The notes under the pieces: generated by a model
Databases searched by the model: none
What the model was told of the DNA's origin: nothing
Seen by the model: only the letters and a program-made list of their open reading frames with translations
Part shown: one piece after another, positions 25,098 to 46,944 of the stretch
How positions within the stretch are numbered: position 1 is the first letter of the stretch
Layout: every line of letters begins with the position of its first letter
Made by a program: the position numbers and the translations under genes
Origin: Aminobacter anthyllidis
GTDB lineage: Bacteria > Pseudomonadota > Alphaproteobacteria > Rhizobiales > Rhizobiaceae
Assembly (NCBI RefSeq): GCF_018555685.1
Contig: NZ_JAFLWW010000003.1
Span: forward strand, 62,001 to 126,000
Direction: 5' to 3'
DNA length: 64,000 nt

Positions 25098-25410
25098 TTT
25101 CCTTGTCCAAGCCGCGCGTCTACCTAGCGAGGCAGCATAGTGAGACGCCGCTGTCTCCAAACCGCGACCCTAGCACAGCGCAAGGAGCCCGCGCCTGGGG
25201 AAATGGGTATCGTTGCGCAGCGGGCTGCACAACTTAACCGGCTGTCGCATGCCAGTTTGATTTTCCGGCACGCAATCAAGTCTGCGGTGAAATCGAAATT
25301 CGCGACTTTGGCCGGGGCACCGCTTTCGGTGGCAGCTGCCATCGGCTTGTCGAGCTGGCGCATATTTTTCTGAACGAGGTTTGCCAAAGGCAGAGAATCC
25401 GAGCGGAGCA

Positions 25411-25446
25411 TTATTGTCTTTTACTCATCAAAAGATTGAAATAATA
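25411..25446. promoter_or_regulatory. Nested inverted repeat upstream of the amidohydrolase/BMP importer operon
   Basis: Two nested arms in an A+T-rich patch: outer ATTATT (25411-25416) and AATAAT (25441-25446), inner TCTTTT (25418-25423) and AAAAGA (25431-25436) around ACTCATC. It lies 49-84 bases before the amidohydrolase start, a good place for an operator of the LysR or other regulator. The function is inferred. Confidence 0.4.
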
Positions 25447-25494
25447 AATTTGTCTAAACTAATCGCTCGTGCTCTCTTTCCCGTCATAACAAGA

Positions 25495-27845: not shown

Positions 27846-27884
27846 GCGCGGCCCCTGGGAACTTATCAAATGGGAGGAAGAGCA

Positions 27885-30032: not shown

Positions 30033-30112
30033 AAGAATGGAAACTCCCGCAAAGCACATGTCAGCTTTCGGGAAAACAAAGACTTAGGCGACATTCCTGA
30101 AGGGTCTATTCA

Positions 30113-31045: not shown

Positions 31046-31050
31046 TCGAC

Positions 31051-32592: not shown

Positions 32593-32655
32593 ACAAGAGG
32601 GCCCACGACGGACCATCTACATAGCCGGCTGGTCCCGAAACGTGGATTGCTCGAT

Positions 32656-33579
32656 ATGAACATAACGCTGCGGCAACTCAAGGCTTTCATAGCGGTGGCC
32701 GAATTCGGACAGTTCAATCTTGCCGCCCGAAGCCTCCACCTCACCCAGTCGGCCGTCAGCATAGTCATTCGAGATCTAGAAACGGAGATCGGCGTACGCC
32801 TGTTTGACCGCCACACCCGCATGGTTTCGCTCACCCTCGTGGGCCAGGAGTTCCTGCCGCAGGCCCGCAAGATACTGAAAGACCTGGACCTTGCGGTTGG
32901 CGACATGCGCGACAACGCCTCGTTGAAGCGCGGCCAGGTGACGATCGCTGCCGCAATCGTGCTTGCTGCCACCATTGTGCCGCCTATCATCGCAGCGTTC
33001 GTGAGCATGCATCCCGAAATCCTGGTCAGCATCCGCGACATGCCGGAAGAGGCAATCAGCCCGGCGCTCAAGCGCAACGAGGTCGATATCGCCATCGGCA
33101 CGCTCTCGGAAGACGACCCCGAAATCACCGCTACGCCTCTCATGCGCGACAAGCTCATGCTGGTCTGCCGGGAAGACCATCGTTTCGCCAGGCAAAAATC
33201 CGTGCGCTGGGCCGAGCTGAAGGATGAGACTCTCATTACGCTCGCGGCCGCGAATCCGCTTCGGAGCATTGTCGAGCACAACCTCATCCGTGTTGTGCCC
33301 AATTTTCAGCCAAAATACGAAGTGCGCTTCTCGACCACCGCCATCAGCATGATCTCCGCCGGCATGGGCGTGGCCGTCTTGCCGGAGAATTCCAGCCAAC
33401 TGGCGTCAGCGGTGCGCGTAACCACCGTGGATCTCGTCGACCCGACCGTAATGCGCAATGTCTCCCTGTTGCAACGGCGCCATCACAGCCTGTCACCGGC
33501 AGCAGAACATTTGAAAGCGGCCTTCGTGGTGGCGATGCAAACTGAAAATGCCGGCGCAAGCACGGTCGGTAGCACTTAG
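32656..33579 (+). CDS. LysR family transcriptional regulator 1
   Basis: 307-residue LysR protein starting at MNITLRQLKAFIAVAE (ATG 32656). The N-terminal winged helix-turn-helix (LTQSAVSIVIRDLETEIG) is followed by the effector-binding domain. It closes the BMP importer block, 63 bases after the ATPase gene and on the same strand, so it may be co-transcribed. It is closely related in sequence to the LysR gene at 46048-46944 on the other side of the catabolic block (shared GQF.LAA, RLFDRHTR, SLSPAA). No strong ribosome site. Confidence 0.88.
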   Translation: MNITLRQLKAFIAVAEFGQFNLAARSLHLTQSAVSIVIRDLETEIGVRLFDRHTRMVSLTLVGQEFLPQARKILKDLDLAVGDMRDNASLKRGQVTIAAAIVLAATIVPPIIAAFVSMHPEILVSIRDMPEEAISPALKRNEVDIAIGTLSEDDPEITATPLMRDKLMLVCREDHRFARQKSVRWAELKDETLITLAAANPLRSIVEHNLIRVVPNFQPKYEVRFSTTAISMISAGMGVAVLPENSSQLASAVRVTTVDLVDPTVMRNVSLLQRRHHSLSPAAEHLKAAFVVAMQTENAGASTVGST

Positions 33580-33639: not shown

Positions 33640-34128
33640 TCAGCACGCATTGAACATGACGAGTTCACGGCTTCTTAGCGCGCTGACAGTCTCTTCGGCG
33701 ATACCTTCGGGCGGCTGATTTACGGGAAACCATCGCGCCTCATCCAATTGACCGGAGGCTGTCACGCCCAGCTCTCCGGAAATTATTGAAACAGCATAGG
33801 TGATCGAAAGTACGTGGTGGCCAGCAACGTCATCTAACTGGTCATTGATGAACACAGCCGAGACGGGCCATGCGAGGATTCCCAGATCGTCATGAAGGCA
33901 TCGCACAATCGACATGGCACAATTTTCTCCACGCCGTATCTGGCGACCCGGCATCTGCCATAGGCAATCAGCGGAATTCTTGGACCGGACCAGCAGGATG
34001 CTGCCACGCTCATTCCTGATGAGCGCGCGAGCGGTTAGTTCGACGCGATTTGACAAAGACGCCTCCACCCCTTGCGGACAGGCACCGTGGATGCTGCCGT
34101 TTGCTCCTGGAATGGAAACGCTCTTCAT
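33640..34128 (-). CDS. Nudix-fold protein with a degenerate Nudix box
   Basis: 162-residue protein starting at MKSVSIPGANG (GAAAGG seven bases upstream); the longer frame upstream is non-coding. The Nudix fold is recognisable (TARALIRNERGSILLVRSK, LWQMPGRQIRRGEN). Against the consensus G-x5-E-x7-R-E-U-x-E-E-x-G-U the box keeps Glu68, Arg76 and Gly83. However, the first catalytic Glu is Cys77 and the Glu pair is Asp80-Asp81. Hydrolase activity is therefore doubtful; it might be a sensor or a specialised enzyme. It is the last gene of the leftward catabolic block, 172 bases after xdhC. Confidence 0.72.
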   Translation of the reverse strand: MKSVSIPGANGSIHGACPQGVEASLSNRVELTARALIRNERGSILLVRSKNSADCLWQMPGRQIRRGENCAMSIVRCLHDDLGILAWPVSAVFINDQLDDVAGHHVLSITYAVSIISGELGVTASGQLDEARWFPVNQPPEGIAEETVSALRSRELVMFNAC

Positions 34129-34300
34129 CGGTTCGCCTTTCACACGACTGGCTGGCACTCCAGGCCGAGCAGAACAGGGAGCCGGCGACGCCAGGGAGCG
34201 TTGTGGAACCCCCTGAATACGCCGCCGGCCTACGCCGGGCTTTGGGAACACGCAGGGCAAGCTGGGAGGCTTGAGGCCCGCGAAAAGCCCGGACGTATCG

Positions 34301-35347
34301 TTAGTCGACCACCGCGCTTGTGATGTGTTCGCTTGCGTGCATGGGGTCGAAGCTCTTGTTGATGTCTTTGGGCGCAAGCGTGCGGGTGATCATCGGGTCG
34401 GTCTGGACCTTGCACTTCATGTCGAGCAATCTTGCCCGCGCAAGGTCAGCGACCACCGAAAGGGCAAGCGAGTTTGCGTCTGTCGCCTTGTCGAAGATGC
34501 CGATTGGTGCCTTGATCCGGGCCAGCGTGGTCTCGCCGTGACCGCGTTTGCGCAAGGCCTCACAACGTTTCGCGTGGGTACGACGGCTTCCCAGAGCGCC
34601 AATGTAGAAGGCGGATGAGGCGAGCGCGGCGTCGAGCAGCGGCAATTCGCGGTCGATGTCATGGAACAGGAGCACGACCGCGGTGTCAGCGTCCAGTTGG
34701 TCCTGCGACAGGGTTTGGCCCCGCTCGACCTTGACGACGTCGTAGCCGGATACTTCCGCCACACGCGCCACCGCGCCAGCCTCCAGGGGCGTGCCGGCGA
34801 GAAGCATGCGCTGCCTTGGGCGGTAGGCGCGCACAAATTCCTCCCCTTCCCAGCCACTCACGCCCTCGCCCGGTTCGAACAAAAGAGCCTGCCTGCCAGG
34901 ATGGTACCGGAGGCGCGCGGGTGCGCGGCGGTGCAGCGCGGCAAGCACATGACGGAGCGCGGTGGCATCCCTCAGGACGTGGATAGCCAGCGTGATGCCG
35001 CCGCCACAGGGCAGCACGATGTCGAAGAAAGGCGAGCCTTCGCCGAGGCGCAGCTTGCGGTCGATGCCTTTCTGGAGGGCGACTACGGCATCAGCGGCGA
35101 CGGCCGCTTCGGTGCAGCCGCCGGAGACGAAACCGCAGTAGAGGCCGTCGTCGCGCACCGCCATCTGCGCGCCGATGGCGCGGGCAGCACCGCCGCGGAT
35201 GTCAACGAGCGTGACGAGGGCGACGGCGTGGCCCCGCTCGATCGCATCAGCGGCGAAGGCCAGGATGTCGATCGCATCGTCCGATAGGAAGGCGGCGCTG
35301 GGTTCTGGCGCGAGTGTTTTCGGCGACGTGGCAATGCGGGTGGCCAT
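34301..35347 (-). CDS. xdhC: XdhC/CoxI family molybdenum-cofactor insertion protein
   Basis: 348-residue XdhC-type chaperone, starting at MATRIATSPK (ATG 35347 with GGAGGGGA upstream). Domain order: N-terminal XdhC_CoxI domain with the motif FVSGGCTEAAV, then a Rossmann-like C-terminal domain (FYIGALGSRRTHAKR). In the family it binds the molybdenum cofactor, helps its sulfuration and delivers it to a xanthine-dehydrogenase-type enzyme. Its client should be the three-subunit hydroxylase encoded at 40752-44397, seven genes upstream in the same direction. It starts one base after the UbiX-like gene's stop. Confidence 0.9.
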   Translation of the reverse strand: MATRIATSPKTLAPEPSAAFLSDDAIDILAFAADAIERGHAVALVTLVDIRGGAARAIGAQMAVRDDGLYCGFVSGGCTEAAVAADAVVALQKGIDRKLRLGEGSPFFDIVLPCGGGITLAIHVLRDATALRHVLAALHRRAPARLRYHPGRQALLFEPGEGVSGWEGEEFVRAYRPRQRMLLAGTPLEAGAVARVAEVSGYDVVKVERGQTLSQDQLDADTAVVLLFHDIDRELPLLDAALASSAFYIGALGSRRTHAKRCEALRKRGHGETTLARIKAPIGIFDKATDANSLALSVVADLARARLLDMKCKVQTDPMITRTLAPKDINKSFDPMHASEHITSAVVD

Positions 35348-35348
35348 A

Positions 35349-35933
35349 TCATTCCCCTCCCTGCGTTCCCTGCCAGCGGCGCACCATGCCAGGGTCGAGA
35401 TCGAAGAGGTCGAGCACCCGGCCGACGGTGTGGTCGACCATTTCCTCAAGGCTTTGCGGCTTGGCGTAAAAGGCCGGAACGGGCGGATAGATGATGCCGC
35501 CCATTTCGGTGACCTGCGCCATGTTCCTGATGTGGCCGAGATGGAGCGGCGTCTCGCGAAGCATCAAAACGAGGCGGCGGCGTTCCTTCAGCACGACGTC
35601 GGCGGCGCGGGAAAGCAGATTGTCGGTCGTTCCAGTCGCAATTTCCGCCATGGTCTTCACCGAACAGGGAGCGACGATCATGCCGAGCGTCTTGTAGGAG
35701 CCGGAAGAGCAGACGGCACCGATATCCTTGTTGGAATGGGTGACCGTCGCCAGCGCCTCAAGATCCTGCTTGGTGAAATCGGCCTCGGCAGTGAGCGTGA
35801 TGCAGGCGGCGCGCGACATGATCAGATCCGTCTCGATTTCGAGGTCGCGCAGCACCTCGAGGATGCGCTTGCCGTAGATGACCCCGGAAGCCCCCGAAAT
35901 GCCGACGATCATCCGTCTTGGCCGCGTCGTCAT
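35349..35933 (-). CDS. UbiX family flavin prenyltransferase
   Basis: 194-residue UbiX/Pad1-type enzyme. It joins dimethylallyl phosphate to FMN to make prenylated FMN, the cofactor of UbiD decarboxylases. Motifs: VGISGASGVIYGKRIL at the N-terminus (FMN site), the SSGSYKTLGMIVAPCS segment, and LRETPLHLGHIRNM. It lies three bases after the UbiD-family gene, so it is most likely dedicated to that decarboxylase and not to ubiquinone synthesis. Confidence 0.92.
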   Translation of the reverse strand: MTTRPRRMIVGISGASGVIYGKRILEVLRDLEIETDLIMSRAACITLTAEADFTKQDLEALATVTHSNKDIGAVCSSGSYKTLGMIVAPCSVKTMAEIATGTTDNLLSRAADVVLKERRRLVLMLRETPLHLGHIRNMAQVTEMGGIIYPPVPAFYAKPQSLEEMVDHTVGRVLDLFDLDPGMVRRWQGTQGGE

Positions 35934-35936
35934 GAC

Positions 35937-37310
35937 CTATCCCACCGATTTGAGGAGTGCGGCGGCGCGGGCCGAGGCCTCGTCGCTGATGCGGGCACGA
36001 ACGCCATGGAAGTTCGGGCCGCGTGTCGCGTCGAGGCCCATGCGCGAGGTCGTGCCAATGCCGCTCGCCGAAGGGTCGAGCGCATTGCCCGGCAGGCCCT
36101 CGATGATGACGACATCCTTGTGCGGCTGGAAATGGGTGGCGAGCGCCCAGAGGACTTCACTGTCCTTGGTGATATCAACGTCAGCGTCCACCACCACGAC
36201 ATTCTTCAGGTACTGGTCCCAGCCAAGCAGGCCCAGCATGACCTGCCGCGCCTCGCCCTCGCGCGACTGGTTCATCGCGATATAGGCGTGGAAATGAGTG
36301 CCGGACGACGGGTAGTGCACGGCGGTAATGGAAGGAAAACGCGCCTTCAGCTTTTCCACCACCTCTGCCTCGCGCGGTACGCGGCCGAGATTGAGATGCT
36401 CGGCCGAATTGCCTCCGGCGACGGAAACGAGGATCGGATCACGCCGGCGCATGATGGTTTCGACGGAGAAGAGGTTGTTGGTCGAGCGGTCGGATGAATA
36501 GCCGGTGAACTCGCCGAACGGCCCCTCCTCCACATGGGCCTCGGGGTCCAGCACGCCTTCCAGCACGATCTCGGCATGGGCGGGAACGCGAATGCCATAT
36601 TTCGGCGAGCGCACAACCTGCAGCGGCTCACCCATAAGGCCGCCGGCGACATCGCGCTCGTCCTCGCCGAAGGCAAGACGGGCGGAGGCGGCGATCATGA
36701 ACAGCGGATGGCCGCCGATCACCATGGCGACCGGCATCGGCTCGCCCTTCTCCTTTGCCATGTTCATCAGGCGCCAGAGATGGCCGCGCGAATGCAGCGA
36801 GGTCGCGAGCGAATTCTTCGAATGGATCATTGCGCGGTGATAGCTGAGATTGCCGGCGCCGGTTTCAGGGTGCTCGCCGATGATGATGCCTGATGTGATG
36901 TATTTGGCGCGGTCGGTGTCGAAGTGCTTCAGCATCGGCAAATTGTGGAGATCGACGTCATCGCCGGAGATGATCTCTTCCGTGATCGGACCGCTATCCA
37001 TGACCTCCGGCGCGAACGGCCGGTTGGAGCGGGCCTGGTAGGCCTCATGCAGCTTGTCGGCGGTCGAGCCGAGCAGACGGGCGATGCGGTCACGCGAGGC
37101 AAAGATGTTGCAGACGACCTCACTTTCGATGCCGTTGACATGCTTGAGATGCAGCATCGGATGCTGGCCCTTGTCTGCAAGATTCCAGATCAGCGCGGTT
37201 GCGTCCTGATCGTCCGAGACCGGCCCGTCGATGGTGATGACGTCCTCGGGATGCTGGTCCCGATAGTCGGCGAGGAAACGGCGGACGTCTTGCTTGTGAT
37301 GCTGGGTCAT
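35937..37310 (-). CDS. UbiD family prFMN-dependent (de)carboxylase
   Basis: 457-residue UbiD-family enzyme that removes a carboxyl group from an aromatic, heteroaromatic or alpha,beta-unsaturated acid. The catalytic Arg-Glu-Glu set is present: Arg159 in NLSYHRAMIH and Glu262/Glu267 in EEGPFGEFTGYSSDR. The metal/prFMN region HSRGHLWR is also seen. It is encoded with its own UbiX. No small third subunit (as in VdcC of vanillate decarboxylase) is found. Neighbours suggest a hydroxylated N-heterocyclic acid as substrate, which is inference. Confidence 0.92.
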   Translation of the reverse strand: MTQHHKQDVRRFLADYRDQHPEDVITIDGPVSDDQDATALIWNLADKGQHPMLHLKHVNGIESEVVCNIFASRDRIARLLGSTADKLHEAYQARSNRPFAPEVMDSGPITEEIISGDDVDLHNLPMLKHFDTDRAKYITSGIIIGEHPETGAGNLSYHRAMIHSKNSLATSLHSRGHLWRLMNMAKEKGEPMPVAMVIGGHPLFMIAASARLAFGEDERDVAGGLMGEPLQVVRSPKYGIRVPAHAEIVLEGVLDPEAHVEEGPFGEFTGYSSDRSTNNLFSVETIMRRRDPILVSVAGGNSAEHLNLGRVPREAEVVEKLKARFPSITAVHYPSSGTHFHAYIAMNQSREGEARQVMLGLLGWDQYLKNVVVVDADVDITKDSEVLWALATHFQPHKDVVIIEGLPGNALDPSASGIGTTSRMGLDATRGPNFHGVRARISDEASARAAALLKSVG

Positions 37311-37338
37311 GTCTCGGCCTCGATGCTGCGGGTGGAGA

Positions 37339-37360
37339 GCGGCGCCCCGGAGGGCGCCGC
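37339..37360 (-). promoter_or_regulatory. Hairpin between amidohydrolase and UbiD genes
   Basis: Perfect eight-base inverted repeat GCGGCGCC / GGCGCCGC around CCGGAG, in the 59-base gap. No T-run follows on the minus strand, so a stabilising or attenuating mRNA hairpin is more likely than a terminator. Confidence 0.55.
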
Positions 37361-37369
37361 CCTAATCAA

Positions 37370-38314
37370 TCACGCGAACTCCAGATGCTTGCCGGTGGCG
37401 CGGTCGATGCCAGCGTAGGAATCCTTGAGGCGTGCCTGGGCGTCCTTCACGTCGCGCGGCGGCGGCGACGGGTCGATGCCGACGAGCTTGGCGATGTTGT
37501 TGCCGAGATAGCCTTCCAGATCGTCCTCGGAGAGGTTGATGCCGTGCGGCGGGTCCTTGCAGAGCACTTCCAGTTCGCGTAGCCACATGCCCGGATCGTT
37601 CGGCGGGCTGTCCGTGCCGAAGACGATCTTGTTCTTCGGCAGCTGCTGGGCGAACTCCACGATGCGCGACTGGAAGCACCAGCCGGATTCGCAGTAGACG
37701 TTCGGCGTATCCATCGCCATCCAGAAGGATTCGAACGAGTAGTTGCCGCCCGTCTGGATGCCGAAATGGCCGATGATGAAGTTGACCATCGGGAACTCGC
37801 GGATGATCGGGTAGAACATCGTCGGGATCGTGTATGGGCCGTCGCCGGTGTGGATGAGCACGACCACGCCGAGTTCGGCGCACTTCTTCATTGCCGGACG
37901 CAGCCAGTCGAGCGCACGGTCGGGACGATAGCCGTGCATGTTGGCGTGCAGCTTCAGCATCTTGAAGCCGTATTCCTTGACGTGGAATTCCAGCTCCGCC
38001 GCGCCGTTTTCAGGGCCCCAGCGCGGGTTGTAGTTGAAGTTGCCGATGAAGCGGTCCGGGTATGTCTGGCACAGCTCGGCGCAATAGGCCATGTAGTCGC
38101 GAATGCCGTCGCGGCCCTTGCGGTTGCCGTCGCGGTAGCCGGTATTACCCGGCGGCGGCTGGATGAAGCCCATGTCGATCCGGCGCGGCTTGCCGTTGAT
38201 CATGTAGGGGCCGTCCATCAGCTTCAGCATGCGCTCGCCGGTGAAAGGCGTTCCGGTATGGCGCCATGCCTCGTCGACGAGGTTGGTCGGGTGAAGATGG
38301 GTATCGATGATCAT
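37370..38314 (-). CDS. Amidohydrolase-2 family protein with intact metal site
   Basis: 314-residue (beta/alpha)8-barrel protein of amidohydrolase family 2, the group of ACMSD- and resorcylate-type decarboxylases and LigI/LigJ-type hydrolases. Metal ligands are all present: His6-x-His8 in MIIDTHLHP, His in VLIHTGDGPY, His in NFIIGHFG and Asp in FGTDSPPND. It could be a decarboxylase or a ring-opening hydrolase. GGAG lies seven bases before the ATG. It follows a paralogue (38333-39256) by 18 bases; the two proteins are similar over their whole length. Confidence 0.87.
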   Translation of the reverse strand: MIIDTHLHPTNLVDEAWRHTGTPFTGERMLKLMDGPYMINGKPRRIDMGFIQPPPGNTGYRDGNRKGRDGIRDYMAYCAELCQTYPDRFIGNFNYNPRWGPENGAAELEFHVKEYGFKMLKLHANMHGYRPDRALDWLRPAMKKCAELGVVVLIHTGDGPYTIPTMFYPIIREFPMVNFIIGHFGIQTGGNYSFESFWMAMDTPNVYCESGWCFQSRIVEFAQQLPKNKIVFGTDSPPNDPGMWLRELEVLCKDPPHGINLSEDDLEGYLGNNIAKLVGIDPSPPPRDVKDAQARLKDSYAGIDRATGKHLEFA

Positions 38315-38332
38315 GATTCACTCCGTTCAATT

Positions 38333-39256
38333 TTACGCGGCGAGCGCGACGCCGTGCTGGCGCAGATACGCTTCGGCTTCCTCGACGCTCGCCGGCGCCT
38401 TGGTTGGCTCGAGGCCGATCATGCGGGCGGTGTTGTTGCCGAGGTAATCCTCCAGCGTATCCTCATCGAGGTTGAGGCCCTGGGGCGGCTCGTGGCAGAG
38501 GACTTCCAGGAGATTGATCCACATGCCCGGCTCGTTTGGCGGCGTATCTGAGCCGAACAGGATCTTGTGCTTGGGCAGGACCTTGGCGAATTCGACGATG
38601 CGCGACTGCAGGCACCAGCCGGATTCGACGTAGACACTCGGTGTATCCAAGGCCATCTGCATCGGCTCGAACACGTAGACGCCGCCGGTCTGCACGCCGA
38701 AATGCGCGAGGATGAAGTTCACTTCCGGGAACTCGCGGATGATCGGGTAGAACTCGGTCGGGATCGAGTACGGACCGTCGCCGGTATGCACCTTCACCAT
38801 CAGGCCGAGCTCGGCGCATTTCTTCATGGCCGGACGCAGCCAGTCGAGCGCGCGGTCGGGACGGTAGGCGTGCATGTTCGCCTGCAGCTGCACCATCTTG
38901 AAATCGAACTCCTTGGCGTAGCGTTCGATCTCTTCGGCGCCGTTCTGCGTGCCGTAGCGCGGGTTGTAGACGAAGCATCCGAGGAAGCGGTCGGGGTGCT
39001 CGGTCACCATCTTTTCCGTATAGGCCATGTACTGGCGGATGGCGGCCTTGCCTTCCAGGTCCATGACTTCGTGGGTGTAGATGGTGTTGCCCTGCGGCGG
39101 CTGGATGAAGGCCTTGTCGATGCGGCGCGGCTTGCCGTTCACATAGTACGGGCCGTCCATCATCTTCAAAAGCTTGTCGCCGGTGAACGGTGGTCCGTCG
39201 TGGCGCCAAGCCAGGTCCACCAGATCGGTGGGGTAGCAGCTTAGATCAATGATCAT
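38333..39256 (-). CDS. Amidohydrolase-2 paralogue lacking the HxH metal ligands
   Basis: 307-residue paralogue of the next gene, starting at MIIDLSCYPTD (ATG 39256 with AGGAG nine bases upstream). Overall similarity is high (DWLRPAMKKCAELG, FYPIIREFP, ESGWC.QSRIVEFA). The N-terminal HxH ligands, however, are Ser6 and Tyr8, whereas the later ligands remain (VKVHTGDG, FILAHFG, FGSDTPPNE). It may use a single metal, be a regulatory or structural partner of the intact paralogue in a mixed oligomer, or catalyse another reaction. It is the first gene after a 400-base gap, so possibly first in its transcript. Confidence 0.85.
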   Translation of the reverse strand: MIIDLSCYPTDLVDLAWRHDGPPFTGDKLLKMMDGPYYVNGKPRRIDKAFIQPPQGNTIYTHEVMDLEGKAAIRQYMAYTEKMVTEHPDRFLGCFVYNPRYGTQNGAEEIERYAKEFDFKMVQLQANMHAYRPDRALDWLRPAMKKCAELGLMVKVHTGDGPYSIPTEFYPIIREFPEVNFILAHFGVQTGGVYVFEPMQMALDTPSVYVESGWCLQSRIVEFAKVLPKHKILFGSDTPPNEPGMWINLLEVLCHEPPQGLNLDEDTLEDYLGNNTARMIGLEPTKAPASVEEAEAYLRQHGVALAA

Positions 39257-39657
39257 CCTTGTTCTCCTGTCGTAGAGGGTCCGGTCGATGCGGGGCCGCG
39301 CGACGAACGCCATCCCGGCGAAAAGCCGGCATGGCTGCGCGATCTCAGGAAATGCCGATGACAGGGAAGGATAGTCGGTGCGGATGCCGCAGCGCGGCTG
39401 CAACCGACAGGTGTTCCTTTCGCAGTGAGCATCGACATCGCGGCCTCATCGTCCAACAGACGGTGAGCAATTGTCGGCGCTTCTACTCGCCTTTGAAGAA
39501 ACCATGAGGCCGACTCTTTGTCAACGGGCAAATCCATCTAAGCTATTCTTTTTAAAGTGTTTTTACCGAGAATAGCAGCCAATCGCCCGCGCTGGATATG
39601 GCGCGAACGTCTTAGGCAGAGGACTTGAACAGGCGTACTAGGACGAGAGAAGCACCG
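39257..39657 (-). promoter_or_regulatory. 400-base gap with inverted repeat, likely promoter of the amidohydrolase-UbiD genes
   Basis: No gene is seen. The right half is A+T-rich (about 39535-39570) and holds an inverted repeat GCTATTCT (39542-39549) / AGAATAGC (39569-39576) with a 19-base spacer. This is a plausible regulator site upstream of the leftward amidohydrolase-amidohydrolase-ubiD-ubiX-xdhC set. A short CCGG stem-loop near 39312-39330 is also present. The function is inferred. Confidence 0.45.
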
Positions 39658-40755
39658 CTAAGCGGCCAGGCATGCGCGCAAGTTCCTGTCTATGCCGTCA
39701 CGGTCGAGATTGCGGCCGATGAAGACGAACTTCGACTTCCGCGTGTCCTCGCCCCAGCTGTGGTCCGGGCGGAAATCGACCAGCTTGTGCACCGCCTGGA
39801 GCACGAAGAAGCGCTCGTCATTGGCCACCGAAACAATGCCCTTGGTGCGGAAGATGTCGTCGCCGCGCTCGCCTAGATAATCCTTCAGGAAGGTGGCGAG
39901 CTTCTCGCCGTCGAAGGAGTGCGGGTAGACGAAGGAGTGGGACTTCACCGTCGCGTCGTGGCTGTGCGGGCGCAGGACCGATGCGTGGCCGTGATCATGA
40001 TCCGGATGGTCGCAGGCCGCATCGTGGCATTCGTCGTGGCCATGCGCGTCGTGGTCATCGTCCATGTCGATGTCGAGTATTTCCGCCCGCTCGCGCACGT
40101 AGGACGGACGGAAGCCATTGACGCCGAGGATGTTGGAAAGATCGACCACACCGTAACTGCAACGCAGAATGGGTGCTGTCTGGTTGAGCTTGCGCAGCGA
40201 CGCCTCCAGCGAGCCGAGCGCCTCTTCGCCGGCAAGGTCAATCTTGTTGACGATGATGCGGTCGGCCGCGACGATCTGGTTGACCGCCTGGTTGTCGCTG
40301 CCGTCAAGCACCGGATCGTAGAGGTGCTGATCGATATGCATGGCATCCACCAGGGTCACGATGGCATCCAGTTCGACCTCGTCGGCAACGCTGCGGTCGA
40401 CGAAGAAGGCTGTGGCGACGGGGGTTGGGTCCGCCAACCCCGAAGTCTCGACGATGATGTGGTCGAACTTGTCCTTGTGGCTCAACAGCTTCTTCATCAC
40501 GTCGATGAGGTCGTTGCGCACGTCGACGAAGCAGCAGATGCAGCCGTTCTGCATCTGGAAGATTTCTTCGTCGGAGGCGAGCACCAGGTCGCTGTCGACG
40601 TCGACTTCGCCAAACTCGTTCTCGATCACCGCGATGCGGTGGCCGTGGCGTTCGGTGAGGATGTAGTTGAGCAGCGTCGTCTTTCCCGATCCCAGGAACC
40701 CGGTAAGGATCGTTATCGGGAGCTTCTGGCTCGCAGGTTCGATATGCGTGTTCAT
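39658..40755 (-). CDS. COG0523 (CobW/G3E) family GTPase, putative metallochaperone
   Basis: 365-residue G3E GTPase. Walker A GFLGSGKT (19-26), the family metal motif CxCC as CICC (72-75), the base-recognition NKID, and a His/Asp-rich stretch (about 225-255, with DDDHDAHGHDECH) that could bind several zinc ions. The C-terminal CobW_C domain follows. COG0523 proteins hand metal ions to client enzymes. Here the nearest clients are the two amidohydrolases and the molybdenum hydroxylase. Its start overlaps the hydroxylase large-subunit stop by four bases, so they are coupled. Confidence 0.9.
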   Translation of the reverse strand: MNTHIEPASQKLPITILTGFLGSGKTTLLNYILTERHGHRIAVIENEFGEVDVDSDLVLASDEEIFQMQNGCICCFVDVRNDLIDVMKKLLSHKDKFDHIIVETSGLADPTPVATAFFVDRSVADEVELDAIVTLVDAMHIDQHLYDPVLDGSDNQAVNQIVAADRIIVNKIDLAGEEALGSLEASLRKLNQTAPILRCSYGVVDLSNILGVNGFRPSYVRERAEILDIDMDDDHDAHGHDECHDAACDHPDHDHGHASVLRPHSHDATVKSHSFVYPHSFDGEKLATFLKDYLGERGDDIFRTKGIVSVANDERFFVLQAVHKLVDFRPDHSWGEDTRKSKFVFIGRNLDRDGIDRNLRACLAA

Positions 40756-43058
40756 GCGCCCTTCTCCCTCAAGGCCTTCAGGATGTCTTCCGGAGTGATC
40801 GGATAGTGGTGGAACCGAACGCCAATGGCGTCGTGGATGGCATTGGCGATGGCTGGGCCGATGGCAATGATCGGGTCTTCGCCAACACCCTTGGCGCCCC
40901 AGGGACCGCCCGGATCGGGTGCTGCTTCGAGGATGATCGTCTCGATGTCCGGCATGTCCATGGAGAGCGGCATCTTGTAATCGACGAGGCCGGCGTTGAG
41001 CGACCGCCCGGTCTTCTTGTCGATGATGTAGTCTTCGGTCAGCGTGTGGCCGATGCCTTGCTGGATGCCGCCCTCGATCTGGCCCTGCGCCGCGATCGGG
41101 TGGATGACCCGGCCGACATCGTGCACCGGTATGACGCGCTTGACCTCGACGATGCCGGTTTCCGTATCGACATGCACCTCAGCGAAATGCGCGGCGAAGG
41201 AATAGGACTTCGTCGGCTCGTAGGTGCCGTTCGCGACGATGTTGGCGGCGGGAATGCCGCGGGACGGCCCCATGGCTTCCGCGACCGTCATGAAGCGGCC
41301 CGGCTCGGCCTTGACGAAGATATTGCCTTCGGAAAGGTCGATCTCCCCAGGCTTGACCTGCAGCTTCATCGCAGCCCGTTCGAGAACGGACGCCCGTACC
41401 TTGGTGGCGGCCATCTTGGCGGCCGTGCCGACAAGATAGGTCGTGTGGCTGGCAAAGGCGCCGATGTCCCAAGGCACCACGTCCGTATCGCCATGGATCG
41501 TGCCGACATCCTCGAAGCGCACGCCGAGTTCTTCGGCAACGATCTGCGCCAGCGCGGTATGCGCGCCGGTGCCGAGGCCGGCGGCACCCGTGAGCAGCGT
41601 CACCGTGCCATCCTCGTTGACCTTCACCGTGGCGTTGCCCTGTTCCTTGATGCCGGGATAGGCGGAAGAACCGTGCATTTCGCAGCCGATGCCCCAGCCG
41701 GTACGGATGTGGGGGCGCTTGGGGTCCGGCGTACGGTCGCGATTGCGCAGTGACTTCCAATCGAGCACATCCATGCCGTGCTGGAGGCAGATTTCCAGGC
41801 CGTGGCCGAGAATGGGATGGCCCGATGGGGCGATATCGCCGGCGCGTACTACGTTCTTCAGCTTCAGCTCCGCCGGGTCCATGCCAATCCGCTCGGCCGC
41901 CTCGTCCATCTGGATGTCGAGCGCATAATAGCTCTGCACCACCCCATAGCCGCGGAAAGCGCCGTTGATCGGCGTGTTGGTGTAGACGCAGCGCCCTTCC
42001 AGTCGCACGTTCTCGCAGCGATAGAGCGAGGTGGCAGCCGTCGTGCCGACGATGGTGACGCCCGGACCATGCGAGCCATAGGCGCCAGAATCGTAGACCA
42101 GCTTCATGTCACGCGCGACGAGCGTGCCGTCGTTTTTGAAACCCTGCTTCAGCCAGATCTTGCACGGGTGGCGCGAGCGGCCGGCGACGAAGGTCTCGTG
42201 GCGGGTGAACTCCATCTTCACCGGCCGGCGCGTTTCTTTCGCAAGCAGCGCGCAGAGGAATTCGTGCTGGAACAGATCCTGCTTGGCCCCAAAGCCCCCG
42301 CCCATATGGTCGACGAGCACGCGGACCTTGGTCAGCGGCAGGCCGAGCACTTCGGCAAGGATGCCGCGCACCATGAAAGAGGTCTGGGTAGAGGTCCAAA
42401 AGGTCAGCTTGTTGGAGCCGTCCCAGTCCGCGATACAGACATTCGGCTCCATATAGGCCGGATGCGGCCGCCCCCCGGAGAAGGTGCCTTCGAGCACGAA
42501 ATCCGCCTGGGCAAATGCAGCGTCCACGTCGCCACGATTGACGCGCACCGGATCGAGCACCAGGTTGCCGCCCGGCCCGACCTCATGGATCAGCGGCGCA
42601 CCCGGCTGGGCGGCATCTTCCGGCTCAAAAACGGCCGGCAGGGGCTCGTATTCGACCTCGATCAGGTCAAGCGCCTCATCGGCGATCTCCTCGCTGATGG
42701 CGGCGACGGCGGCGACGCCCTCGCCCCAGAACCGTACCCTGTCGTCGAGGATATACTGGTCCTTGGTGCAGGAGGCCGAGCGCGGATGCGGCGAACCGTA
42801 GTGCAGCACGCGCGGCACGTTCTCATGCGTCAGCACCGCCTTGACGCCAGGATAGGCGAGCGCCTTGCTGACATCGATGCTCTTGATGCGGGCATGCGCG
42901 ATTGCCGCGCGCTTGATCTTGCCGTGCAGCATGCCGGGCAGCTTGACGTCGCCGGTATATTCGGCCTCGCCCGTCACCTTTTCCAGCACGTCGTCGCGGC
43001 GAACGCTCTTGCCGACGATCTTGAAATCGCGCTGTTCAATAGGGGTCGTCACGTTCAT
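40752..43058 (-). CDS. Xanthine-dehydrogenase-family molybdenum hydroxylase, large subunit
   Basis: 768-residue molybdopterin-binding catalytic subunit. Family landmarks: DDVLEKVTGEAEYTGDVKLP at the start, HMGGGFGAKQD, the segment INGAFRGYGVVQ beside the molybdenum, and the catalytic base Glu727 in GAKGVGE. It adds a hydroxyl group from water to a carbon next to a ring nitrogen or to an aldehyde. The AFRGYG form is seen in purine and N-heterocycle hydroxylases rather than in true CO dehydrogenases. It is translationally coupled to the Fe-S subunit (four-base overlap). The substrate is unknown. Confidence 0.92.
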   Translation of the reverse strand: MNVTTPIEQRDFKIVGKSVRRDDVLEKVTGEAEYTGDVKLPGMLHGKIKRAAIAHARIKSIDVSKALAYPGVKAVLTHENVPRVLHYGSPHPRSASCTKDQYILDDRVRFWGEGVAAVAAISEEIADEALDLIEVEYEPLPAVFEPEDAAQPGAPLIHEVGPGGNLVLDPVRVNRGDVDAAFAQADFVLEGTFSGGRPHPAYMEPNVCIADWDGSNKLTFWTSTQTSFMVRGILAEVLGLPLTKVRVLVDHMGGGFGAKQDLFQHEFLCALLAKETRRPVKMEFTRHETFVAGRSRHPCKIWLKQGFKNDGTLVARDMKLVYDSGAYGSHGPGVTIVGTTAATSLYRCENVRLEGRCVYTNTPINGAFRGYGVVQSYYALDIQMDEAAERIGMDPAELKLKNVVRAGDIAPSGHPILGHGLEICLQHGMDVLDWKSLRNRDRTPDPKRPHIRTGWGIGCEMHGSSAYPGIKEQGNATVKVNEDGTVTLLTGAAGLGTGAHTALAQIVAEELGVRFEDVGTIHGDTDVVPWDIGAFASHTTYLVGTAAKMAATKVRASVLERAAMKLQVKPGEIDLSEGNIFVKAEPGRFMTVAEAMGPSRGIPAANIVANGTYEPTKSYSFAAHFAEVHVDTETGIVEVKRVIPVHDVGRVIHPIAAQGQIEGGIQQGIGHTLTEDYIIDKKTGRSLNAGLVDYKMPLSMDMPDIETIILEAAPDPGGPWGAKGVGEDPIIAIGPAIANAIHDAIGVRFHHYPITPEDILKALREKGA

Positions 43059-43537
43059 GATCTTGCAGCCTCCATCTCGATCGCGGCGGCTTTGATCGCG
43101 TCGAAAATCTTGGTGTAGCCGGTGCAGCGGCAGATATTGCCGCTAAGGCCGAAGCGGATGTCCTCGTCGCTCGGGCGCGGATTGTCGTCGAGCAGCTTCT
43201 TGGCCATCATCAGGATGCCCGGCGTGCAGAAGCCGCATTGCGAGGCGCCGTGGCGCATGAAGGCATCCTGCAACGGATGCAGCGTATCGACGCCAGGCTG
43301 TAGCCCCTCGATCGTCTCGACCGTGCGGCCTTCGGCCTCCACCGCAAGCATCAGACAGGCATTGACCGGCTCGCCATCGACGATGACCGTGCAGGCACCG
43401 CAATCGCCGACATCGCAGCCCTTCTTGGTGCCGGTGAGGCCGACATCGTCGCGCAGCGCATCGAGCAGCGAGCGGCAGCTGTCCACCGTCATGTCGCGCG
43501 GCTCGCCATTGATGGTGAGTTCGACGATGCGTTTCAT
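43055..43537 (-). CDS. Molybdenum hydroxylase [2Fe-2S] subunit
   Basis: 160-residue electron-transfer subunit starting at MKRIVELTINGEP (ATG 43537). Eight cysteines form the plant-type cluster (GCDVGDCGACTV, then a later Cys in NACLM) and the alpha-helical cluster (QCGFCTPG and GNICRCTGY). It passes electrons from the molybdenum centre to FAD. The start overlaps the FAD-subunit stop by four bases. The longer open frame to 43639 is inside the neighbouring gene. Confidence 0.93.
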   Translation of the reverse strand: MKRIVELTINGEPRDMTVDSCRSLLDALRDDVGLTGTKKGCDVGDCGACTVIVDGEPVNACLMLAVEAEGRTVETIEGLQPGVDTLHPLQDAFMRHGASQCGFCTPGILMMAKKLLDDNPRPSDEDIRFGLSGNICRCTGYTKIFDAIKAAAIEMEAARS

Positions 43538-44397
43538 GCGAAAGCCTCCAATGCCTGTTTGATGGCGCGGCCCGTGAGCACGCCGACCATGTCGCGGCGG
43601 TATTCGGCACTGGCGCGCACGTTGCTGATCGGCGTGCACTCTTCCATCGCCTTGTCGGCGGCGTTTTTGACAATTGCCGCGTCGAGCGAAGTGCCGCGCA
43701 GCATGGCTTCGGCTTCTGGCGCGCGCAGCACGGTTGCTCCGACCGCGCCGAGCGCGATGCGGATGTCGTTGCAGAGGCCATCTTCCATGGTGAGGCTGAC
43801 AGCGACGCCGACGGTGGAGAGTTCCATCGCCTTGCGGCGGCCGTGCTTGAGATAGGCCTTGCCGGCGTTGTCACCGGCGGGCGGCACGGTGATGCCGGTG
43901 ACGATCTCGCCCTTGGCCAGCACCGTCTTGCCGGGGCCGGTGAAGAATTCGGCAAGCGGCACGACACGCATGTTGGTGCGGCTGTAGATGTGGATGAACG
44001 CGCCATCGGCAATCAGCGGTGGGATCGTATCGGCCGACGGCGAGGCACGACAGACATTGCCCACCACTGTCGCACGGTTGCGCACCTGGATGGAGCCGAG
44101 CGAGGCGAAGGCCGCGCGCAGGTTCGGGTAGCGCTGGCGCACCAGCGGCAGGTTTTCCAGTCGTCCAACGGTCACTAGCGCGCCGAACGTCAGGCCGCGT
44201 GTTTCGTCATAGGTGATGTCGGACAGGCCCCGGATCTGCTTGATGTCGACGACGTTGCGCACCCGGCGCAGCCGTTCTCGGATTTCGACCAGAAGGTCCG
44301 TACCACCGTTGAACAGAAAGGTGTCGTCACCGAGATCGACGAGAAGGCGGGAGGCCTGCTCCAGCGTGTCCGCCCGATGGTATTCAAAGCGCCTCAT
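43534..44397 (-). CDS. Molybdenum hydroxylase FAD-binding subunit
   Basis: 287-residue medium subunit, starting at MRRFEYHRADTLEQAS (ATG 44397 with AGAGGA upstream). The FAD-binding motifs are FLFNGGTDLLVEIRERL near residue 30 and the TVVGNVCRASPSAD segment near 110. It is the first of the three hydroxylase genes in transcript order (FAD, Fe-S, Mo). A 94-base gap with a hairpin separates it from the upstream permease gene. Confidence 0.92.
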   Translation of the reverse strand: MRRFEYHRADTLEQASRLLVDLGDDTFLFNGGTDLLVEIRERLRRVRNVVDIKQIRGLSDITYDETRGLTFGALVTVGRLENLPLVRQRYPNLRAAFASLGSIQVRNRATVVGNVCRASPSADTIPPLIADGAFIHIYSRTNMRVVPLAEFFTGPGKTVLAKGEIVTGITVPPAGDNAGKAYLKHGRRKAMELSTVGVAVSLTMEDGLCNDIRIALGAVGATVLRAPEAEAMLRGTSLDAAIVKNAADKAMEECTPISNVRASAEYRRDMVGVLTGRAIKQALEAFA

Positions 44398-44451
44398 GGC
44401 ATTCCTCTTGGATTCTGGCCGCTTGGCCTCTTGGGCTGCGCGGCTCGGGGC

Positions 44452-44475
44452 TCCGGCGGCGCGAAGGCCGCCGGA
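44452..44475 (-). promoter_or_regulatory. Hairpin between permease and hydroxylase genes
   Basis: Perfect nine-base stem TCCGGCGGC / GCCGCCGGA with a six-base loop. It follows the permease stop by 17 bases on the minus strand. No T-run is seen, so partial attenuation or message stabilisation is more likely than full termination. Confidence 0.55.
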
Positions 44476-44491
44476 CTCATGTTTGTGCTGT

Positions 44492-45886
44492 TCAGGCGAG
44501 GTCAGCAGCCGGCGTATGGTTCTGCAGCTCGCTGTCCTCACGCTCTTTCGCGGGCACGCCGTTGAAGAGGATGTTGAGGAGTGCTGCCGCAAACGTGCCG
44601 ACGAGCACGCCACTGTGCAGGAACTTTTCGACTGCGGCCGGAAGCTGGGCGAAGATGTTGTCGGCGACGACCGGCACCATGGCGAGGCCGACGCTGACCG
44701 CAACGATGTAGAGATTGCGACGGTTGGCGACGAAATCCACCTTCGCCAGGATCTTCACACCCGTCGCCGAGACCATGCCGAACATGACGATGGCGGCACC
44801 GCCGACGACGTAGCTCGGGATCGACGCGCTGATGAAGGCCACCTTCGGCAGCGAACCGAGCAGGATCAGGATGACGCCGCCCGCCGCGACCACGAAGCGA
44901 CTCAAGACGCCGGTGATCTGGAGCAGGCCGACATTCTGCGCATAGGTGGTGTAGGTGAAGGTGTTGAGCAGGCCGCCAATGATGTTGCCCACGCCGTCGG
45001 TCCTCAGGCCGCGGGTAAGTTCGGCCTGGCTGATCTTGCGCCCGGCCATGTCGCCGACCGCCAGGAATTGCCCGGTCGATTCGATCATCATGACGGTCAT
45101 CACCGCACAGAGAGACAGGATCGACCAGAACTCGAAGACCGGCCAGCCGAAGGCGAGCGGGTGGATGATGCGCACCCAGCCGGCGTCCGCAACGCCATGG
45201 AAATCAACCTTGCCGGATGCGATCGCGATGGCAAAGCCGACGCCGATGCCTATCAGTACCGCAAGGTTGGACAAGAAGCCCTTGAGAACCCGTGTGAGCA
45301 GCAGGATCGACAGCAGCACGATGGCCGCGACGGCAAGCGCGAAGGGTGCGCCAAAAGCGGGATTCGGGATCATGCCTTCCGGCCCCCGGATCATCGGCTG
45401 GCCGCCGGCGGCCCAGTTCACGCCGACGCGCATCAACGAAAGGCCGATGACCAGCATGACCGTGCCGGTGACAACAGGCGGGAAGAACCGCACCCAGCGC
45501 CCGAAAAAGGGCGCGGCGATGACAGTGAAGACACCAGAGCCGATGACCGCGCCAATGACGCCAGGCATGCCTAGGTCCGGATTGGTGCCCGTCGCGATGA
45601 TCGAGGGAACGGCGGTGAACGAGATGCCCATCATGATCGGCAGCCGGATGCCGACGTGGCGGCCGAAGCCAAGCGCCTGGATGATGGTGACGATGCCGCA
45701 ACAAAACAGATCCGCGCTGACCAGCATCGCGATCTGATCCTTGGGCAAATGCAGCGCGCTCCCGACGATGAGCGGCACGGCGACAGCGCCGGCATACATG
45801 ACGAGAACGTGCTGCAGGCCTAGAGCGAAAAGGCTCGGGATCGGATACTTCTTCTCGACGGGATCCGTCGTATCAAGATTGGACAT
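44492..45886 (-). CDS. NCS2 family nucleobase (uracil/xanthine-type) permease
   Basis: 464-residue membrane protein with about 12-14 hydrophobic segments, of the nucleobase:cation symporter-2 family. Family signature regions: LQHVLVMYAGAVAVPLIVG near the N-terminus, the ESTGQFLAVGD segment and TYAQNVGLLQITGV (the QNxG motif). Members import xanthine, uric acid, uracil or related heterocycles with protons. As the promoter-proximal gene of the molybdenum hydroxylase set it should bring in the pathway substrate. It is divergent from LysR 2, with 161 bases between. Confidence 0.9.
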   Translation of the reverse strand: MSNLDTTDPVEKKYPIPSLFALGLQHVLVMYAGAVAVPLIVGSALHLPKDQIAMLVSADLFCCGIVTIIQALGFGRHVGIRLPIMMGISFTAVPSIIATGTNPDLGMPGVIGAVIGSGVFTVIAAPFFGRWVRFFPPVVTGTVMLVIGLSLMRVGVNWAAGGQPMIRGPEGMIPNPAFGAPFALAVAAIVLLSILLLTRVLKGFLSNLAVLIGIGVGFAIAIASGKVDFHGVADAGWVRIIHPLAFGWPVFEFWSILSLCAVMTVMMIESTGQFLAVGDMAGRKISQAELTRGLRTDGVGNIIGGLLNTFTYTTYAQNVGLLQITGVLSRFVVAAGGVILILLGSLPKVAFISASIPSYVVGGAAIVMFGMVSATGVKILAKVDFVANRRNLYIVAVSVGLAMVPVVADNIFAQLPAAVEKFLHSGVLVGTFAAALLNILFNGVPAKEREDSELQNHTPAADLA

Positions 45887-46016
45887 TCGCTATCCTCCCA
45901 GCGAATAGTGTTCCGGCGCGGTGGGGGCATCTTGGCCTCATGTTTTGTCACCGCACGCCGTACAAGAGGGATCATGCGGCTGGCCAACTCAGCAAACAAT
46001 CGGCACAATCATATTT

Positions 46017-46035
46017 ATTCATCTAGTAACTGAAT
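46017..46035. promoter_or_regulatory. Probable LysR box between the permease and LysR 2
   Basis: Inverted repeat ATTCA-N9-TGAAT, a T-N11-A-type site as LysR proteins use, 13 bases before the LysR 2 start and 131 bases before the permease start. Autoregulation plus activation of the divergent permease-hydroxylase genes is the usual LysR arrangement; binding is inferred. Confidence 0.55.
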
Positions 46036-46047
46036 GAATGGATCGGC

Positions 46048-46944
46048 ATGGACATCACGCTGAAACAGCTTCGCGCCTTCGTCACCGTGGCCAATCTCGG
46101 GCAGTTCACGCTGGCCGCCGACAAGCTCGGCTCGTCGCAATCGGCCGTCAGCACGCTGGTGCGGCAGCTCGAGCAAAATCTCAATCTTCGTCTCTTCGAC
46201 CGGCACACCCGCCTGCTGCGCCTTACCCAGGCGGGCATGGACATCCTGCCGGTCGCAGCCCGCGCCGTTGCCGATATCGAGGGCATGGTGGAGGGCTCGC
46301 GGGAACTGAATGCGCTGCGGCGCGGCAAAGTCACGATAGCCGCCGGCACGGTTCAGGCTGCCCTGATGCTGCCGCAGCTCGTCAACGCCTTCACCAAGCT
46401 CTACCGCGAGATCACGGTCGAGCTGCACGATGTCGCGGAGAAAACCGTGCTGGAGCAGGTCGCCAACGGTTTGGTGGACCTTGGACTAGGCACGGTGCCG
46501 GAAGACGATTCGGAACTCGTCGGTACGCGGCTCTCCACCGATGAGTTCTTGGTGGTGCTCCATGCCGATGACCCGCTGGTGAAACGTCCCGAACTGCGCT
46601 GGACCGACCTTGCCGACTGCAAGTTGATCGGCCCGCAGCGCGGCAACCCGATCCGCGACCGGCTGGAAAACGAACTGGCGCGCAACGGCATCGTTCTGCC
46701 GCTCGACAAGTCGATGCAAGAAGTGGCGCTGCCGCTGACCATCATCGGCATGGTTGAAGGCGGCCTCGGCGTCGCGATCATGACCTCGGCCGTCACGCGC
46801 CTTGCAACCTCCATGGGCCTCGTCGTTCGTACCCCGACCGAGCCGCACATCAAGCGCGAGGTCAGCCTGATCCAGAAACGGACCCGTTCCCTTTCGCCTG
46901 CCGCACGGTGCTTCCGCGATTTTCTGCTGAAGTCGGTTCATTGA
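46048..46944 (+). CDS. LysR family transcriptional regulator 2
   Basis: 298-residue LysR protein (MDITLKQLRAFVTVANLGQF). Helix-turn-helix at about residues 18-37 (SSQSAVSTLVRQLEQNLN), then the effector-binding domain. It is divergent from the nucleobase permease and should control that operon. It resembles LysR 1 (32656-33579) over the whole length, so the two regulators probably arose by duplication and may answer to related ligands. Confidence 0.9.
   Translation: MDITLKQLRAFVTVANLGQFTLAADKLGSSQSAVSTLVRQLEQNLNLRLFDRHTRLLRLTQAGMDILPVAARAVADIEGMVEGSRELNALRRGKVTIAAGTVQAALMLPQLVNAFTKLYREITVELHDVAEKTVLEQVANGLVDLGLGTVPEDDSELVGTRLSTDEFLVVLHADDPLVKRPELRWTDLADCKLIGPQRGNPIRDRLENELARNGIVLPLDKSMQEVALPLTIIGMVEGGLGVAIMTSAVTRLATSMGLVVRTPTEPHIKREVSLIQKRTRSLSPAARCFRDFLLKSVH

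Follow-up and report, generated by a model that had tools for sequence, protein, structure and literature searches.

A conserved locus of Aminobacter anthyllidis as a candidate pteridine catabolic unit

Pterins are shed by the breakdown of folate and biopterin and by insect pigments. Classical biochemistry in Alcaligenes established that bacteria turn tetrahydroxypteridine into xanthine-8-carboxylate by means of tetrahydroxypteridine cycloisomerase (EC 5.5.1.3). This activity stands, ranked 'difficult', among the 228 orphan activities of a list published in 2007 (PMC1940265). We analysed a gene cluster of Aminobacter anthyllidis, located in a stretch of 64,000 nucleotides (positions 62,001 to 126,000 of contig NZ_JAFLWW010000003.1; hereafter, the window), which may well be, although we hold this tentatively, a pteridine catabolic unit that leads from pterins to xanthine. 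It encodes a UbiD-family decarboxylase with a UbiX partner, two paralogous Amidohydro_2 proteins (AH1 and AH2), a CobW GTPase, an NCS2 permease, a molybdenum (Mo) hydroxylase and a deaminase (CYTD). The predicted steps, i.e., deamination, ring hydroxylation, contraction and decarboxylation, are the same as in the classical breakdown of pterins and lumazines, but EC 5.5.1.3 was an orphan in 2007, and the proteins of the locus are matched to that route by predicted steps only; no sequence for EC 5.5.1.3 was found with which AH1 and AH2 could be compared.

Several other described systems resemble parts of the locus. XdhABC, the three-subunit xanthine dehydrogenase (XDH), has the same Mo/FeS/FAD build as the locus hydroxylase and shares its conserved active-site Arg. 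HmfF and AnInD, whose substrates are five-membered heteroaryl acids (of furan and indole, respectively), belong to the same UbiD family and have the same catalytic R-E-E residues as the locus decarboxylase. LigW, LigJ, ACMSD and LigY share the predicted fold and the Pfam family of AH1. Finally, the enzyme of PDB entry 2PAJ, reportedly described by Hall and co-workers in 2010 as an isoxanthopterin / pterin-6-carboxylate deaminase, is the best PDB match of the deaminase found in beta- and gammaproteobacterial versions of the locus and has the same motifs; we take it to be one of the amidohydrolases with these two activities. Deamination of isoxanthopterin and pterin-6-carboxylate by amidohydrolases of this family is documented (PMC5270733).

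An initial annotation, confined to positions 33640-46944, had proposed a locus for the catabolism of an N-heterocycle through a Mo hydroxylase, a UbiD decarboxylase and amidohydrolases. This outline and the conservation of the locus are supported by what follows, and the substrate class given with it was probably wrong: a deaminase outside those positions led us to revise it to the pteridines, which we favour with moderate confidence.

The conserved core and its deaminases

A scan of one genome per species (84,980 species) with two peptide patterns produced 239 relatives of AH1. The best 80 were kept and, together with five plasmid loci, make up a set of 85 loci, which includes several strains of one species and therefore does not consist of independent cases; genes were counted in each locus by tblastn, with flanks ending at 10 kb for the 80 genome loci. 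AH1 is present in all 85, AH2 and UbiD in 84 each (in three of these loci UbiD is just 40-41% identical), CobW in 79, UbiX in 76 and NCS2 in 67. Of the 83 loci in which AH2, AH1 and UbiD all occur, 80 have them side by side in the same orientation, which indicates clustering beyond chance; the three others are from Rhodoplanes, and their UbiD of 40-41% identity is found elsewhere in the stretch. The core parts thus travel together across genomes, so that the initial annotation withstands a refuting test which it had named itself, and a chance cluster is rejected by the co-occurrence of core and deaminase described below. XdhC, which had also been counted as a member, is present in the window and was detected in just 20 of the loci.

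Identity of AH1 across the 80 loci kept is 83-99%, reaching 99% in the same-genus A. ciceronei and A. carboxidus. Judging by record titles, the hosts presumably fall in the Alpha-, Beta- and Gammaproteobacteria. One locus (L083) is titled Enemella evansiae, from a genus that we take to be actinobacterial; it has the gene order of Ponticoccus/Mameliella, with similar identities, and may represent contamination or recent transfer. The cluster is also carried by pSymB of Sinorhizobium meliloti 1021 (L143, NC_003078.1, at 142635-153908 of the stretch 128000-160000). The tag SMb20132 presumably denotes a gene of this cluster. Under the heading of PhaR and global gene expression, a table published in 2025 gives SMb20132 as 'Probable dehydrogenase, EC 1.17.1.4' (PMC12542648).

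Two kinds of deaminase accompany the core. The first is CYTD. AtzC-type enzymes and cytosine deaminases make up its PDB matches; 2PAJ is not among the 13 at E<=1e-10, the rest of the window genome not having been searched for a 2PAJ-type gene. Among 247 genomes of the window's family, nine hold both CYTD and AH1, none AH1 only, one CYTD only (a copy 44% identical) and 237 neither, i.e., CYTD occurs in 9/9 carriers of AH1 and in 1/238 other genomes; as in the second family sample below, these are related genomes, and the co-occurrence counts are not independent. In the eight genomes with both genes on one contig, they are 9.1-11.9 kb apart.

The second kind is found near the core in 35 of the 85 loci, mostly from Burkholderiales by title, and is related to the copy in L138. 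The best PDB match of the latter is 2PAJ (E 1.4e-135), followed by 3hpa, an amidohydrolase (1e-84), and 7ww2, an 8-oxoguanine deaminase (3e-83); within this 2PAJ type, the PDB comparison covers the L138 copy, which belongs to the group that we call clade A, and a paralogue in L146. The motifs HHHLFQ and APTT, which have active-site roles and are both shared with 2PAJ, are each present in 34 of the 35 in-locus deaminases, and APC[ST] in 0/35, whereas 3hpa and 7ww2 carry APCS. In a sample of 200 genomes from the family of Caballeronia pedi (G489), which includes very small reduced genomes without either gene, clade A, defined by E<=1e-150 (a cut set after paralogues had been seen to score near 1e-133), occurs with AH1 in 37 genomes and without it in none; AH1 alone occurs in one (G624, where the paralogue is present), and 162 genomes have neither. 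The two genes are on one contig, 5.4-17.1 kb apart, in 35 of the 37 pairs and on different contigs in the other two. Around the off-core 2PAJ-type genes of L145, L146 and L147, the core genes were not found by tblastn (>90 bits).

Whole genomes were searched for 50 carriers picked for spread from the 80 (G000 was in neither deaminase search). The 2PAJ type (E<=1e-100) was found in 30 of them and CYTD (E<=1e-90) in 19, with an overlap of 0 and a union of 49. As the two deaminases are complementary in 49/50 carriers, the pathway seems to need one, and the slot appears to be filled by two enzymes of different subfamilies. A deaminase was not seen in the stretch for 31/85 loci, because the flanks stop at 10 kb, even though the search of whole genomes finds one in nearly every carrier. 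In L141 and L142, a Mo large subunit of the window type (67% and 70% identical) shares its locus with a 2PAJ-type deaminase, which ties the version found in the window to the same class. Separately, the Rhodoplanes loci (L094, L097, L118) retain AH1/AH2 and a Mo hydroxylase of the window type, and a search of two of their genomes (G460, G463) found a 2PAJ-type deaminase in both.

Amidohydrolase pair, UbiD and molybdenum hydroxylase

AH1 keeps the metal motif DTHLHP in 85/85 loci, and its ligands H6, H8, H155, H183 and D235 are invariant in 86/86 sequences. Window AH2 reads DLSCYP at the place of this motif; SCY replaces HLH, and Q replaces H123, in 84/84 true copies, the S and Y being found in the window too, and H155, H183 and D235 are retained in both proteins. 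The 85th AH2 match is an AH1 sequence and must come from L142, the only locus without a detected AH2, where AH1 starts 8 bases from the contig end, which accounts for the missing gene. Because the loss of HxH is fixed in all true copies, we read AH2 as a paralogue that is conserved but has no metal motif and that most likely serves AH1 as a partner subunit. Two active amidohydrolases, as initially annotated, are therefore not supported; intact catalytic motifs hold for AH1 (HxH, His, Asp) and UbiD (R-E-E) and not for AH2 or for the Nudix-fold protein of Table 1, which has no canonical Nudix box. The structure model of AH1 (mean predicted local distance difference test, pLDDT, 79.7) matches the ACMSD/LigJ/LigW branch, its fold being like that of decarboxylases, hydratases and C-C hydrolases (LigJ, LigW, ACMSD, LigY), at 13-19% identity among the 50 structure matches listed; AH1 differs from these enzymes also in standing beside a conserved metal-less paralogue. 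Since the branch includes decarboxylases, ring contraction can be assigned to AH1 only by elimination.

Residues R159, E262 and E267 of UbiD, the catalytic Arg and the two Glu of this family, are present in 84/84 aligned sequences, including that of the window. The nearest solved structures are 6h6x/6h6v, which we take to be HmfF, the furan-dicarboxylate decarboxylase, then E. coli-type UbiD and then AnInD (7p9q). Positions aligned with H296 and R304 of HmfF, which we presume to be functional, are also kept in 84/84. UbiD is predicted to bind prenylated flavin mononucleotide (prFMN) and to decarboxylate a heteroaryl acid, and the furan and indole acids may be regarded as near analogues of a purine at its C8. 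The substrate would differ from that of HmfF: a furan-dicarboxylate (FDCA)/furoate pathway is rejected, as UbiD alone resembles HmfF, and to our knowledge the hmf furoate pathway has no deaminase and no amidohydrolase pair.

The Mo large subunit of the window falls below the XDH cut-offs of both NF043082 (Table 1) and TIGR02965 (333 against 849.5 bits). Its AFRG motif still has the Arg, and Gln stands at the Glu position of GGFGGKE, as seen in 11/11 sequences of the window type aligned with the genome's own XDH. In XDH, the active-site Glu and Arg have purine-binding roles, and the change of Glu to Gln might suit a substrate other than that of XDH. A curated XDH, over the cut-off, is encoded on another contig of the window genome, and one is present in 51/51 carriers; given this separate enzyme and the Gln, xanthine degradation proper is rejected as the function of the locus. 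The three-subunit hydroxylase of the window (>55% identity) is found in 40/85 loci, another Mo hydroxylase, apparently of two subunits and 23-27% identical to that of the window, in 28, and neither kind was seen in the stretch for 17. The second kind (L132:4095-6368 and similar genes in 27 other loci) fills the hydroxylase slot in betaproteobacteria, and the N-terminus of the L132 large subunit has, by eye, a Tat-like twin-arginine stretch, which suggests periplasmic oxidation.

Candidate pathway and its alternatives

Gene content, conservation, deaminase linkage, motif status and the separate XDH are read directly from the sequences; the substrate class is suggested by the 2PAJ relatives and the gene context, and all reactions that follow are predicted assignments. 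A pterin in its oxidised form, for instance pterin itself or isoxanthopterin, would enter via the NCS2 and BMP-type transporters, and the deaminase (CYTD here, the 2PAJ type in beta- and gammaproteobacteria) would remove the 2-amino group to give a lumazine, which the XDH-like Mo hydroxylase would oxidise at C6 and/or C7 to 2,4,6,7-tetrahydroxypteridine. AH1, paired with the metal-less AH2 and with its metal loaded with the help of the CobW GTPase, would open the amide of the pyrazine ring, and re-closure would yield xanthine-8-carboxylate, as in the reaction of EC 5.5.1.3. UbiD, with prFMN made by UbiX, would then decarboxylate C8 of the imidazole ring, and the resulting xanthine would be taken onward by the cell's separate XDH. 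The four activities of this route (deaminase, ring hydroxylase, contraction and decarboxylase) would map one-to-one onto CYTD or the 2PAJ type, the Mo hydroxylase, AH1/AH2 and UbiD, and amide opening with re-closure is a form of ring contraction that would suit a metal amidohydrolase. The carboxylate would more likely arise inside the pathway than be imported, contrary to the acid substrate of the initial annotation. It is possible, if somewhat doubtful, that in full detail AH1/AH2 is the orphan cycloisomerase, made of a catalytic and a metal-less subunit, that UbiD uses prFMN to decarboxylate a purine acid (xanthine-8-carboxylate), and that the pterin-to-xanthine route occurs in many soil bacteria, with two interchangeable deaminases and two interchangeable Mo hydroxylases.

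A number of observations weigh against the pteridine assignment. CYTD is cytosine-deaminase-like, belongs to a subfamily unrelated to that of 2PAJ and barely aligns to the clade-A enzyme; its activity on isoxanthopterin would follow from the deaminase exchange alone. 2PAJ itself is near-identical to a solitary paralogue from Paraburkholderia (L146:8040-9488; 954 bits over 472 residues), and the core-linked clade A is only ~50% identical to this 2PAJ orthologue, so that isoxanthopterin activity is extrapolated for clade A; a further group of core-linked deaminases (L125, L141, L142) is 54-58% identical to it. At the looser cut of E<=1e-100, 46/200 genomes of the Caballeronia family hold some member of the deaminase family, namely 38/38 carriers of AH1 and 8/162 others, the last eight having the paralogue only. 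With the cuts applied to the 50 carriers, one of them (G488) lacks both deaminases. AH1 has a predicted fold that resembles decarboxylases and could itself decarboxylate. XDH is present also in 100/162 non-carriers, and is weak, non-discriminating evidence for xanthine as the product. The chemistry given to the intermediate steps is carried over from the classical biochemistry. Finally, no description of the gene set was found in the open CC-licensed PMC literature, in agreement with the earlier failure to match it to a named pathway, and subscription papers could hold one; in the same literature, xanthine-8-carboxylate and tetrahydroxypteridine appear only as tentative mass matches in metabolomics.

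The nearest alternative, which we consider unlikely, is that the imported compound is pterin-6-carboxylate, a product of folate breakdown. Its deamination would give lumazine-6-carboxylate as the substrate of UbiD, and after the decarboxylation the ring would be oxidised and opened by the Mo hydroxylase and AH1/AH2. It would supply at once the aromatic acid that UbiD requires, and the 2PAJ family also deaminates pterin-6-carboxylate (PMC5270733). Contraction to xanthine-8-carboxylate would, however, require a second decarboxylase, and only one UbiD turned up when the genome was searched with Pfam, unless AH1 is the enzyme that decarboxylates, as its fold would permit.

A pyrimidine pathway would begin with the deamination of a carboxylated cytosine or a similar compound, continue with the removal of the carboxylate from the uracil acid by UbiD and end in an oxidative breakdown through the Mo hydroxylase and AH1/AH2. 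It would fit the match of CYTD to solved structures of AtzC-type enzymes and cytosine deaminases, and the permease also matches uracil-permease models below the cut-off. Yet the beta- and gammaproteobacterial loci swap CYTD for a deaminase of the 2PAJ type with 2PAJ motifs, and the permease scores 506 bits as a xanthine permease against 125 as a uracil permease. This we judge improbable, and the pyrimidine and pyridine options of the initial annotation are not supported, the deaminase pointing to the pteridine class. Slightly more improbable still is the conversion of a modified purine, in which an 8-substituted guanine or a deazaguanine would lose its amino group, be oxidised and finally yield xanthine or a related compound through decarboxylation by UbiD: the xanthine-type permease, the BMP-type transporter and the XDH-like hydroxylase are compatible with it, and 8-oxoguanine deaminase is among the next PDB and NCBIfam matches of the 2PAJ-type enzyme, but the in-locus deaminases have APTT and not APCS, and there is no evident step for AH1/AH2. 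The weakest candidate, very improbable in our view, is an imported pyridine-, pyrimidine- or purine-type acid that undergoes hydroxylation and decarboxylation and whose ring is opened by two active amidohydrolases, as initially proposed, a scheme which agrees with the gene content and with nicotinate dehydrogenase and quinoline 2-oxidoreductase as solved relatives of the Mo subunit, but omits the deaminase of 49/50 carriers, a hint that the substrate bears an amino group, and assigns activity to AH2, which has no metal motif.

Layout of the locus and its significance

The positions of all features are collected in Table 1. The genes named by the initial annotation are all open, in the stated families and in their places, but eleven of them run leftward, not ten, beside the divergent LysR gene. 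The unit reaches further left than their region (33640-46944), to 25381, where it comprises the genes of CYTD, of a pair of BMP-type binding proteins, of two permeases with their ATPase and of a second LysR regulator.

Table 1. Genes of the candidate unit and its immediate surroundings in the window
Feature	Position	Strand	Basis and remarks
CYTD, cytosine-deaminase/AtzC-like amidohydrolase, proposed entry deaminase	25381..26802	+	Pfam Amidohydro_3/1; true start probably near 25495-25510
Two BMP/PnrA-type substrate-binding proteins	26853..28865 (26853-27845, 27870-28865)	+	Pfam Bmp
ABC permeases (28938-30032, 30113-31045) and ATPase (31051-32592)	28938..32592	+	Nearest NCBIfam models are of a putative B6 transporter, below cut-off
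LysR regulator A	32647..33579	+	Family search
Nudix-fold protein, degenerate Nudix box	33640..34377	-	Pfam NUDIX; probably outside the unit
XdhC-type Mo-cofactor maturation protein	34301..35347	-	Pfam XdhC_C, XdhC_CoxI
UbiX flavin prenyltransferase	35349..35933	-	NF004685, over cut-off
UbiD-family decarboxylase, proposed xanthine-8-carboxylate decarboxylase	35937..37310	-	TIGR00148, over cut-off
AH1, Amidohydro_2 enzyme, metal motif intact; proposed catalytic subunit of ring contraction	37370..38314	-	Pfam
AH2, AH1 paralogue without HxH; proposed non-catalytic partner	38333..39256	-	64% identity to AH1
COG0523/CobW GTPase, CICC motif and His/Asp-rich loop; proposed metallochaperone	39658..40755	-	Family and motif searches
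Mo-binding large subunit, XDH-like hydroxylase	40752..43058	-	NF043082 663 bits, below cut-off 780; GGFGAKQ, AFRG motifs
[2Fe-2S] small subunit	43055..43537	-	Fer2 and Fer2_2 domains
FAD-binding medium subunit	43534..44397	-	Family searches
NCS2 nucleobase:cation symporter, xanthine-permease subfamily	44492..45886	-	TIGR03173 506 bits, cut-off 414
Divergent LysR regulator B	46048..46944	+	Family search

The spacing of the leftward genes is operon-like, as had been noted for subsets of them: there are three 4-bp overlaps across the CobW, Mo, FeS and FAD genes, gaps of 1-3 bp between XdhC, UbiX and UbiD and of 18 bp between AH1 and AH2, others of 59 and 94 bp, and a largest gap of 401 bp from AH2 to CobW. 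The first-listed reading frames of AH2, XdhC, FAD and FeS begin too early, with likely starts at 39256, 35347, 44397 and 43537, respectively. Nudix and XdhC overlap by 77 bp, given the listed TTG start of the former. The Nudix gene, initially taken as a member, is rejected as such, being found in just 3/85 loci (two from Aminobacter, 74% and 82% identical, and L090, weakly, at 33%); the pattern GX5EX7REUXEEXGU is absent from its product, which may serve as a sensor and not as a hydrolase.

CYTD and some or all of the transporter genes lie near the core, in several arrangements, in L058-L060, L062, L084 and L086-L089, and CYTD occurs without the transporter in L061; the block of ABC permeases and ATPase is near the core also in L059, L060, L062, L063, L064, L084 and L088. 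A gene that matches the arylmalonate decarboxylase / Asp-Glu racemase families is seen near the core in L134 (16874-17608) and 13 other loci, mostly from Burkholderiales, but also from Marinobacterium (L133) and Acidiphilium (L084, near CYTD).

Elsewhere in the window, a second Mo-hydroxylase set (53582-56843), with FAD and large subunits nearer to CO/glyceraldehyde dehydrogenases, adjoins an FMN enzyme similar to L-lactate dehydrogenase (51893-53035). A DapA-family protein (49271-50191) is encoded beside a TetR regulator; in S. meliloti (L060), a distant DapA relative (23% identity) is also found close to the core, probably without any connection. Two reading frames, 7884-10331 and 59038-60546, have weak matches (25 and 34 bits) to anti-phage models, the S8 peptidase IteS and the helicase HerA, respectively.

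All parts of the locus belong to known families; what looks new is the way in which they are combined, the pairing of the amidohydrolases and a UbiD proposed to act on a purine. Assigned genes for the consumption of pterins by soil bacteria were not found in the open literature, and the locus offers candidate genes for an activity listed as an orphan in 2007 (PMC1940265). If the proposed route is true, the substrate range of prFMN enzymes would be extended by a purine acid, structural work would gain an amidohydrolase pair, widely conserved, with one active and one metal-less member, and the gene set carried by the megaplasmid pSymB of Sinorhizobium meliloti, a model symbiont, would receive a function.

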